In this document: one piece after another, positions 5,665-7,688 of the stretch
How the letters are laid out: the number at the start of each line of letters is the position of its first letter
Numbering within the stretch: the stretch's first letter is position 1
Origin: a virus
IMG/VR virus record: IMGVR_UViG_3300006637_000045
Span: 1-21,500 of that record
Strand: one strand, 5' to 3'
Length of the DNA: 21,500 nt
Notes under the pieces: generated by a model
The model's input: only the letters and a program-made list of their open reading frames with translations
Databases searched by the model: none
Told to the model about the DNA's origin: nothing
Made by a program: the position numbers and the translations under genes

Positions 5665-6493
5665 AGAAGCTATCCAGGAAACTGTTGAAGAACCCACCGC
5701 CGATGCCCCCGCGCCGGCCAACGACGATTGGCGCACCACCTTGCCGGAAGACTTGCGCGACCATGAGGGGCTGAAAAAGTATTCCAGCGTCGAGTCCCTG
5801 GCAAAAGGGTACATCAATGCGGCATCGATGCTTGGGCGTGATAAGCTTGTTATGCCGAAAAGCGATGACGAGTGGGGCGATTTCTACAACCAGATCGGCC
5901 GCCCGGAAGACCCAAATGGGTATGAGTTTGAGAAAGTCGACCTCCCCGAGGGGACACCCATCGATGAGGCCGCGCTTGAAGAGTTTAAGCAAGTTGCCCA
6001 CAAAACAGGCTTGACGGCGAAGCAAGCCAACGAATTGCAGAAATGGTACATGGAGCAGACTGGGCAGCAGTTTGAAGACATGATCCGTGGTGCCGAGGAC
6101 GAGATGGCAAACGCCCAGACTCAACTTCGCTCAGAGTGGGGCAATGCTTATGATCAAAAGCTCAATCAGGCCATGCGGGCGATTCGCGAGTTTGGCGGGG
6201 ATGAGTTGGTTGCAGAGCTGGACAGCACGGGCGTTGGCAACAATGTCCAGCTTGTGAAGGCATTTGCCCAGGCCGGCGAAAAGATCATGGGCGACACCGC
6301 GCTTGAGGGCGGCATGGAAGGGGCCCGCACCCCGGCGCAATTGAAGGCTGAGATCGCCAAAATCCAGAGCGATCCGTCCTTCTATGACGCAGAAAACCTT
6401 GAGCGTCCTGCGATGGTGCAGAAAATGCAGCGCCTTATGGAAGAGCTTCACGGAAAGGATGTGATCGGTGAGTACACAATTGGACGTTATTGA
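5657..6493 (+). CDS. Capsid assembly scaffolding protein, 278 aa
   Basis: An internal scaffold that guides capsid-protein assembly and is then lost. It is acidic, with a disordered N-terminus (about 1-24). The conserved core follows: DWRTTLPEDLRDHEGLKKY (24-42), SVESLAKGYINA (44-55), a GRDKLVMP segment (60-67) and YNQIGRPEDPNGYEF (77-91). This W-x-x-x-L-P-E-D-L-R ... L-A-K-x-Y ... G-R-P-E-x-P-x-x-Y-x-F pattern is typical of podophage and siphophage scaffolds. The rest is helical with Glu/Gln/Ala-rich coiled-coil character. The C-terminus (about 255-278) probably binds the capsid protein, by analogy with other scaffolds. Size is comparable with T7 gp9 (307). It overlaps the Bbp19 gene by 8 bases and the next small gene by 26. 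Confidence 0.92.
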   Translation: MSEEAIQETVEEPTADAPAPANDDWRTTLPEDLRDHEGLKKYSSVESLAKGYINAASMLGRDKLVMPKSDDEWGDFYNQIGRPEDPNGYEFEKVDLPEGTPIDEAALEEFKQVAHKTGLTAKQANELQKWYMEQTGQQFEDMIRGAEDEMANAQTQLRSEWGNAYDQKLNQAMRAIREFGGDELVAELDSTGVGNNVQLVKAFAQAGEKIMGDTALEGGMEGARTPAQLKAEIAKIQSDPSFYDAENLERPAMVQKMQRLMEELHGKDVIGEYTIGRY

Positions 6494-6668
6494 GCTGCGT
6501 ATGCGGGCATTTGAGTGTCTCGCCAAACATGCCACTGCGAATGAGTGGAGAGATGTTGACAATATCATCCATAAGGCTAAAATGATTAGCGACTTTTGCA
6601 TGGATGCCAGAAAGCACTCCGCCATTGAAAAGCGGGTGCCAAAAGCGCCAAGCAAAGTGAAAGCCTAA
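6468..6668 (+). CDS. Small helical protein between scaffold and capsid genes, 66 aa
   Basis: I do not recognise a function. The GTG start at 6468 lies inside the scaffold gene. AAAGGA at 6454-6459 stands 8 bases upstream, a good ribosome site, so the start is credible despite the 26-base overlap. The protein is mostly one or two amphipathic helices (LDVIELRMRAFECLAKHA, about 5-22, and VDNIIHKAKMISDFCMDA, about 30-47) ending in a basic Lys/Pro/Arg tail (about 55-66). Helical proteins of 60-90 residues are often found immediately before the capsid gene in phages of this type, usually uncharacterised. Its stop codon lies within the first hairpin of the capsid leader (6665-6691). Confidence rests on the ribosome site and position, not on a family match. 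Confidence 0.65.
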   Translation: MSTQLDVIELRMRAFECLAKHATANEWRDVDNIIHKAKMISDFCMDARKHSAIEKRVPKAPSKVKA

Positions 6669-6766
6669 GACACCGACTACTGTCGCCTTAGCACTTTAGT
6701 CTCGCATCAGATTAGGCCGGTTTCACCGACACCCTAAACGGCGGGTTTTGTTGACCCACTTGGGTC
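6665..6766 (+). promoter_or_regulatory. Structured leader of the capsid mRNA: three hairpins
   Basis: This is the largest non-coding gap in the window (6669-6800). Hairpin 1: CTAAG (6665-6669) pairs with CTTAG (6687-6691) and CGAC (6674-6677) with GTCG (6682-6685), with ACAC opposite a single C as internal loop. Hairpin 2: TTAGG (6712-6716) pairs with CCTAA (6733-6737) and CGGT (6718-6721) with ACCG (6725-6728), again with a single C opposite ACAC. Hairpin 3: GACCC (6753-6757) pairs with GGGTC (6762-6766). CCTAA at 6664-6668 could pair with the same TTAGG, so alternative folds exist. I see no convincing sigma70 promoter: TTGACC at 6751 has no good -10 at normal spacing. Plausible roles are mRNA processing or stability, partial termination, or translational control of the capsid gene. 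Confidence 0.45.
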
Positions 6767-6788
6767 TGTGTAACTGGTTTAATTTGAT

Positions 6789-6794
6789 GGAGGG
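6789..6794 (+). promoter_or_regulatory. Strong ribosome binding site of the capsid gene
   Basis: GGAGGG ends six bases before the capsid ATG at 6801. It is among the strongest Shine-Dalgarno matches in the window and fits the very high expression expected for the major capsid protein. It also fixes the start codon. Confidence 0.85.
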
Positions 6795-6800
6795 ACGAAA

Positions 6801-7688
6801 ATGTCCATTCAAATCACTACGGCATTCGTTGAGCAGTACTCTGCCAACGTGATGCATCTTTCGCAGCAGAAAGGCTCCCGCCTTCGCGCTGCTGTTAGCG
6901 TTGAGTCGGTCACCGGCAAAAATGCATTCTTTGAGCAGATCGGCTCCGTCGCGGCCCGCAAGCGCCCGTCGCGTCACGCCGATACGCCTCAGATGGACAC
7001 CCCGCACGCCCGTCGTCGGGTCTCGCTGGTCGATTATGACTGGGCTGACCTGATCGACAATGAGGACCGTGTCCGTATGCTGATCGATCCCACCTCCCCC
7101 TACGCCCAGGCTGCGGCCTTTGCGATGGGCCGTGCGATTGATGAGGCGATTGTCGAAGCCGCTGATGGCACTGCCTACACCGGCGTTGACGGTTCGACTG
7201 CCACTTCCTACGACAGCGCGAACACCATCGATGTCCAGGTCGGTTCCGGTTCCCCGGCTGCCGATGTTGGCCTGAATGTGGCGAAGCTGCGTGCCGCCAA
7301 GGAAGTCTTGGACGCCAACGAAGTCAACCCTGATGAAAGCCGCTTCATCATCCTGAATGCCAAGCAGCTTAAAAATCTGCTGGCGGAAACCGAGATCACC
7401 TCGTCCGACTACAACGTGGTCAAGGCCTTGGTTCAGGGCGAAGTCAACACCTTCATGGGCTTCAACTTCATCCGCACCGAGTTGATCGGTACTGACGCGA
7501 ATGCCGACCACAAAGTTCTGTATTTCGCCCAGTCCGGCATCAAGCTTGCCGTTGGGTCCAACCCGACTGCCCGCATCTCGGAACGCGCCGATAAAAACCA
7601 CGCCACCCAGGTTTTCTACTCCATGTCTATCGGGGCCACCCGCATGGAAGAGAAGCAGGTTGGCTACATCGAATGCGATCCCAGCTAA
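6801..7688 (+). CDS. Major capsid protein, 295 aa
   Basis: Builds the icosahedral shell; expected to have an HK97-type fold. Recognition rests on the conserved N-terminal half: MSIQITTAFVEQY (1-13), QQKGSRLRAAV (22-32), RHADTPQMDTPHARRRVSL (58-76, with the D-T-P motif), DYDWADLIDNEDRVRMLID (78-96) and a long helix with AMGRAIDEAIVEAADG (108-123). This pattern is that of the phage capsid family found with T7-like and BPP-1-like head genes, not T7 gp10. The central RAAKEVLDANEV and FIILNAKQLKNLL segments are the usual helix and strand of the axial domain. The C-terminus (about 262-295) is SERADKNHATQVFYS and a terminal strand. A strong SD precedes it, and scaffold lies upstream and a decoration-type gene downstream, as in BPP-1. 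Confidence 0.93.
   Translation: MSIQITTAFVEQYSANVMHLSQQKGSRLRAAVSVESVTGKNAFFEQIGSVAARKRPSRHADTPQMDTPHARRRVSLVDYDWADLIDNEDRVRMLIDPTSPYAQAAAFAMGRAIDEAIVEAADGTAYTGVDGSTATSYDSANTIDVQVGSGSPAADVGLNVAKLRAAKEVLDANEVNPDESRFIILNAKQLKNLLAETEITSSDYNVVKALVQGEVNTFMGFNFIRTELIGTDANADHKVLYFAQSGIKLAVGSNPTARISERADKNHATQVFYSMSIGATRMEEKQVGYIECDPS

Follow-up and report, generated by a model that had tools for sequence, protein, structure and literature searches.

What does the DNA just before the capsid gene of this phage do? The window, meaning the whole stretch analyzed here, is a 21,500-base ocean phage record whose structural genes follow a T7-like order: terminase, head-tail connector, a protease/scaffold-like gene, a 66-aa ORF, the major capsid protein and tail tubular proteins. 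The capsid is ∼59-61% identical to those of Pelagibacter phages HTVC010P, HTVC034P and HTVC035P, and the 66-aa ORF has no match in PHROG or Pfam. A GNAT-type acetyltransferase gene (PF00583, window:1711-2172) is flanked by the terminase on one side and the connector genes on the other. Sequence comparison indicates that coat-protein production is probably controlled by the folded leader RNA before the capsid gene (Table 1), a hitherto undescribed element, since the same signal precedes the coat gene of many other marine phages.

Table 1. Features of the window upstream of and including the capsid gene
Feature	Position	Strand	Remarks
66-aa ORF	6468..6668	+	TAA stop codon inside HP1
Sigma70-like promoter TTGACA-N16-TAAAAT	6556..6583	+	11/12 matches; inside the 66-aa ORF
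HP1	6665..6691	+	5-bp outer stem, ACAC (6670-6673) opposite C6686, 4-bp inner stem, loop TACT; CTAAG[ACAC]CGAC-tact-GTCG[C]CTTAG
Burying stem, 5' strand	6699..6722	+	6712-6721 overlaps the HP2 5' arm; duplex z = -3.6
HP2	6712..6737	+	HP1 loop mirrored, C6717 opposite ACAC (6729-6732); TTAGG[C]CGGT-ttc-ACCG[ACAC]CCTAA
Third stem GACCC-actt-GGGTC	6753..6766	+	22 bases 5' of GGAGGG; present only in the window's closest relatives
Burying stem, 3' strand	6772..6796	+	Includes the Shine-Dalgarno GGAGGG (6789-6794)
Major capsid protein	6801..7688	+	PHROG 3437 major head protein; PF19821

Two hairpins, HP1 and HP2, carry one asymmetric four-against-one internal loop in opposite orientation, as the original prediction had it, and all of its coordinates (hairpins, loops, CCTAA/TTAGG copies and third stem) agree with the sequence. 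Region 6650-6800 has a folding z of -4.64, with none of 200 shuffles equally stable. Of 3000 dinucleotide shuffles of 6655-6800, 18 contain a 4/1 hairpin and, after it, a 1/4 hairpin with stems as long as those of HP1 and HP2; identical loops appear in none (0/3000). Other parts of the prediction hold as descriptions but not as conserved features. The word CACCGAC is indeed present in both hairpins (6671-6677 and 6724-6730), but in differing registers and by chance; no comparable word common to both hairpins was noticed in relatives. The third stem stands where it was placed, at the predicted spacing, but is no conserved part of the element: it is compensated in L003/L004 (GCCCCC/GGGGGC) and missing from the remaining relatives in the alignment.

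Relatives were collected by capsid, 80 with the window capsid as query and then 80, 5 and 25 with other capsids, together with named phages; 199 loci enter the capsid comparison, and the fetched relatives do not all enter every count. In 76 representatives, <80% identical, of 142 leaders of sufficient length, hairpins were called strictly, requiring stems of ≥4 bp (outer) and ≥2 bp (inner) around R-Y-A-M opposite Y, the first pair being A.C or G.U. This strict rule finds an HP1-type hairpin in 34, an HP2-type hairpin in 26 and the ordered pair, HP1-type then HP2-type, in 19. The corresponding counts are 3, 3 and 0 in 380 shuffles (five per leader) and 4, 2 and 0 in 333 control windows elsewhere in the same loci. 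Under an equal-last-base rule, both strands of the 199 loci (896,943 bases) contain 53 pairs within capsid leaders, spread over 49 loci, and two elsewhere, and HP1/HP2 is the window's sole pair. The two outside pairs (L062:2003 and L072:1960) each lie ∼1 kb upstream of the capsid. This rule finds no pair in the whole genomes of HTVC010P, whose capsid leader lacks any match, and phiVC8, where only HP1 is matched, yet both hairpins are visible by eye in HTVC010P (HP1, and HP2 with a U.U mismatch) and in phiVC8; the hairpin-pair counts are therefore rule-dependent. Relatives 1.257.O, D317, EcoM_APEC and TPWB-05 lack the element or have short leaders.

The finding named beforehand as counting against the element was an absence of covariation and of conservation in relatives; both are clearly present. 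Across the window clade (alignment A2, 14 rows), HP1 and HP2 are paired in 90.7% of cells, and covariation reaches 0.332 against 0.140 in shuffles (0/500 as high), mostly from HP1. The two HP1 helices are 95.7% and 100% paired in this clade, with both sides changed in 6/9 pairs. For HP2, 37 leader segments taken at fixed distances were aligned with MAFFT without structure (A3), the window and L003 being shifted by 16 nt for their longer spacer; for alignments A1, A2, A4 and A5, segments were positioned manually or from a motif. The HP2 stems are paired in 89.1% of the A3 cells, with 63 double changes against 20.6 in shuffles (0/500 as high) and a covariation of 0.563 against 0.185 (0/500). A fold of the window-clade alignment was tried and set aside: it recovers HP1 with covariation, but only three inner pairs of HP2, and puts CCCU on the Shine-Dalgarno in place of the HP2 outer stem. 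Many relatives (L018, L019, L028, L033, L035, L047) have a conserved hairpin with a GAAAGA/GAUAGA loop between HP1 and HP2, usually after GACA. It recalls boxB-like hairpins, and the window's clade is without it.

In relatives, the internal loop takes the form R-Y-A-N against Y, where N is A, C or G. Across the 37 A3 leaders, the single short-side base faces the first base of the long side as C.A in 22 cases and as U.G in 15, never as a Watson-Crick pair (0/37), and the third long-side base is A in 37/37; each loop is thus made up of a wobble pair and, next to it, a bulge of three bases, Y-A-N. The last bulge base is matched between the two copies. With a rule blind to N and to the exact R/Y pairing, which yields an HP1/HP2 pair from 41 of 78 representatives, N is equal in both hairpins of a phage in 39/41 cases (A/A 21, C/C 11, G/G 7) against 16.4 expected, and none of 20,000 permutations, uncorrected for descent, is as high. 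The two exceptions, L040 and L181, look by eye like wrongly picked hairpins. Loop positions 1 and 2 are weakly concordant (29/41, p 0.004, and 24/41, p 0.04). On the capsid tree, N changes at least 12 times, and it differs between L001 (C/C) and L003 (A/A), whose capsids are 92% identical. Covariation of this kind, with one base matched between two mirrored hairpins, is unusual and points either to a common binder or to an RNA tertiary contact of a new type. N class is not followed cleanly by any capsid residue. The best-associated position, residue 53 (window:6957-6959), is arginine in 15/16 C-class phages and often glutamine in A-class phages. This association is confounded by descent, and L001 and L003 have the same residue 53; as evidence for the capsid protein as the binder it is not decisive and was rejected.

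The element reaches further than the original prediction supposed, as models from one phage group match the capsid leaders of others. By eye, VP5, K300 and Vibrio phage 1.182.O have both hairpins, as does phiVC8, and ZP6 and Baldr appear to have both loops in the same orientation. For cyanopodoviruses, 35 of the 80 fetched loci and P-SSP7 were considered, giving 17 representatives. P-SSP7 and related contigs have one C/A-Y-A-C hairpin (17/17), followed by a GAAAGA/GAUAGA-like hairpin and with no clear second copy of the loop hairpin. This element is paired in 99.0% of cells, with covariation of 0.360 against 0.113 in shuffles (0/500). Model R1, built from cyanopodoviruses alone, gives 13 matches at E ≤1 in 56 sources (432,747 bases): P-SSP7 itself, 11 in HTVC010P-type capsid leaders and one elsewhere. 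Taken one by one, most of these 11 are weak (E 0.0002 to 0.81), and several rest mainly on the GAAAGA/GAUAGA hairpin. Model R3, built from HP2 of the 37 leaders, gives 16 matches at E ≤5 in 35 sources (232,647 bases): the window HP2, 11 capsid leaders outside the training set (including phiVC8, Yersinia phage YeP5 and six cyanopodovirus loci) and four elsewhere. Model R2, built from alignment A1, is badly structured, with only three base pairs; that it matches nothing in 26 sources, the window included, is uninformative.

HTVC019P-type phages (80 loci fetched, 79 considered, nine representatives) were also surveyed. A hairpin seen by eye in their leaders, GA[C]NNNNugcgNNNN[ACAA]UC, has a compensated stem but was left uncounted because the motif is weak, with a 2-bp outer stem and seven occurrences on the + strand of that genome; the rule matched another, doubtful hairpin in 7/9. 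Taken across groups, the chances are somewhat better than even that one ancient RNA family controls capsid production in several marine and other T7-like podovirus lineages (pelagiphages, cyanopodoviruses, Vibrio, Alteromonas and Yersinia phages), through an undescribed internal-loop module of wobble pair and Y-A-N bulge whose last base is matched between two copies.

Comparison with known RNAs gives no identity for the element. The covariance models of Rfam 15 have no match in the window at curated score, and the best match at 6400-6900 is weak (E = 4). The leaders of 20 relatives contain no Rfam match, the only ones being group I introns (RF00028) inside two capsid genes (L067:3189-3399 and L047:3104-3313); the window has no such intron. 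A scan of the + strand for intrinsic terminators (GC stem and T run) finds no terminator-like site at 6665-6800, and the terminator scan and Rfam searches together rule out a terminator or a known Rfam element. A literature search, in which coverage of subscription papers was thin, recognized no capsid-leader RNA of these phages. Two-hairpin riboswitches such as guanidine-II (mini-ykkC) likewise have a pair of short hairpins that share a conserved loop and precede a gene, but here the conserved loop is internal rather than apical and lacks an Rfam match. The T7 phi10 leader also precedes a capsid gene in the same genome order, but has no such hairpin under the rule used.

The element frequently lies behind a promoter. 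A sigma70-like promoter (≥10/12 matches) is found in 17/78 upstream regions, against 6/390 shuffles and 5/341 other windows. Seven of these 17 are the window and L003, L005, L007, L008, L009 and L011, which share the site corresponding to window 6556-6583; as this site is within the ORF in the window, its being common to the seven may partly reflect coding constraint. A -10 box stands immediately 5' of HP1 in L015, L016, L083 and L176, and relatives such as L015, L016, L030 and phages ZP6 and phiVC8 have a promoter just 5' of HP1. The suggestion that the leader is ribosome-sensitive through the upstream stop codon in HP1 is consequently not general.

The most stable fold of region 6650-6800 buries the Shine-Dalgarno, a pairing missed by the original prediction: 6705-6722 pairs with 6772-6789, extended by 6699-6703 with 6792-6796. 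The exclusion that had been predicted between the CCTAA copies (6664-6668 and 6733-6737) for TTAGG (6712-6716) does exist, but the larger one sets the HP2 5' arm against the bases before the start codon. Covariation of the burying stem is weak (0.173 against 0.144, and 0.146 when slid by one column). Across phages, the mean unpaired probability of the Shine-Dalgarno region is 0.29 for the capsid gene (n=76) and 0.51 for the gene that follows (n=63; p = 7e-9). Complementarity of the element is greater to its own Shine-Dalgarno region than to those of other phages, lying beyond z -2 in 19/76 leaders against 4.0% of mismatched pairs (p = 2.7e-10); the next-gene control shows a weaker effect (7/63, p = 0.014). 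A z < -2 between element and Shine-Dalgarno occurs in only 22/76 leaders. The occluding strand varies by clade, being the HP2 3' strand in L194, L197 and L203, the HP1 5' strand in L192, L196 and L201, and the linker with the HP2 5' arm in the window. With HP1 and HP2 forced, the window's leader fold becomes 14.5 kcal/mol less favorable, and the linker still keeps the Shine-Dalgarno paired. Since it is paired with the hairpins forced or not (unpaired 0.04 and 0.02), a simple equation of formed hairpins with an open ribosome site fails in the window by thermodynamics alone.

The proposal of a capsid-level control element is nonetheless well supported: the element is specific to capsid leaders, often follows a sigma70-like promoter, and precedes a Shine-Dalgarno more buried than that of the next gene. 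Conserved structure and an occluded ribosome site before a gene are what characterizes translational control leaders in general, and the element shows both. We consider it an even call, judging from comparative sequence data, that the element acts in cis as a conserved RNA of the capsid mRNA 5' leader and shifts between folds to set capsid translation. Its computed features are two modules, each a wobble pair with a Y-A-N bulge, an identical N, a fixed position before the capsid gene and a buried Shine-Dalgarno. One factor, most likely phage-encoded, or the RNA's own tertiary contact would recognize both modules together. Recognition would shift the leader between standing hairpins and a state in which an element strand, 6699-6722 in the window's clade, pairs with the Shine-Dalgarno/start region, and capsid protein would thereby be made at the right time and in the right amount.

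Several other explanations bear on the same evidence. An operator, in line with the original prediction's example of a virion protein as binder, appears unlikely; here capsid or scaffold protein would attach to both loops and turn down its own translation, like the coat proteins of RNA phages. The element does lie almost exclusively before capsid genes, and N switches in both hairpins together, as a common binder would require; yet no capsid residue follows N, the L001/L003 pair differs in N despite its 92% capsid identity and shared residue 53, and twelve switches within a set of related phages would be a high number for coordinated three-way change of protein and RNA. In MS2-type operators, the coat protein represses translation from a bulged-nucleotide hairpin near the ribosome site of a viral gene by recognizing a fixed apical loop sequence. 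The present element resembles them in having a hairpin with bulged nucleotides close to such a site, but its conserved part is the internal loop, it comes in two copies, it belongs to dsDNA phages, and its apical loops vary freely. A fixed apical loop was rejected, as these loops differ in length and sequence among the 76 leaders. Hairpins that protect the 5' end of a stable capsid mRNA, or are cut to release it, are doubtful to the same degree as an operator: a promoter just upstream in many relatives would put the element near the transcript 5' end, the window has a long duplex, and such a role suits phages with host or own polymerase alike, but by itself it explains neither the identical N nor the complementarity to the Shine-Dalgarno.

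The identical N could instead mark a direct, pseudo-symmetric bulge-bulge contact (an N.N homopair) within a compactly folded RNA, whether or not a small ligand takes part, which seems rather improbable. Opposite loop orientation in side-by-side hairpins would give a two-fold arrangement, and frequent double switches fit an intramolecular constraint. However, U.U homopairs exist and U is never found at N in 41 pairs, the loops of ZP6 and Baldr by eye share one orientation, and cyanopodovirus leaders with one such hairpin keep the loop. Distinctly improbable is a processive antiterminator RNA that loads on RNA polymerase where the late operon begins, like HK022 put RNA, which binds the zinc-binding domain of the polymerase beta' subunit and suppresses termination. 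In its favor, the element has two stem-loops behind a promoter; the window hairpins span 73 nt behind the promoter-like site, but other relatives insert one or two hairpins between. Unlike put, which acts in early operons, the element is 5' of capsid genes, and a related one precedes the capsid gene of P-SSP7, a phage that presumably transcribes its late genes with its own polymerase. HK022 put is described as an RNA of ∼70 nt with two stem-loops, with putL just 3' of its promoter, and a cryo-EM structure shows a triplex and bulge contacts (PMC9378689). Favoring antitermination, the HTVC010P-type phage Skadi-1 is reported to encode no RNA polymerase (PMC10504331).

The authors of the Skadi-1 report also could identify neither a terminator nor a riboswitch (PMC10504331). 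With the lack of a polymerase, these absences make late-gene timing in such phages a question, and a conserved RNA before the capsid gene provides a concrete, testable handle on it. HTVC010P-type phages are, by one account, the second most abundant known pelagiphage group (PMC12753301).

Cyanopodovirus capsid leaders contain further structures. A glutamine-II riboswitch (RF01704) is located in the same long P-SSP7 leader (L300:3523-3576), but is a separate element ∼100 nt upstream. Several of these leaders have hairpins resembling a tRNA T-arm (e.g. GGGAGGTTCGATTCCTCCC in L345) 5' of the element; for the one upstream in P-SSP7, ARAGORN reports no tRNA. Palindromes of 10-16 bases (e.g. CTCAAAGATCTTTGAG in L347) are found shortly 5' of the capsid start in L324, L345, L347, L361, L366 and similar cyanopodovirus leaders.
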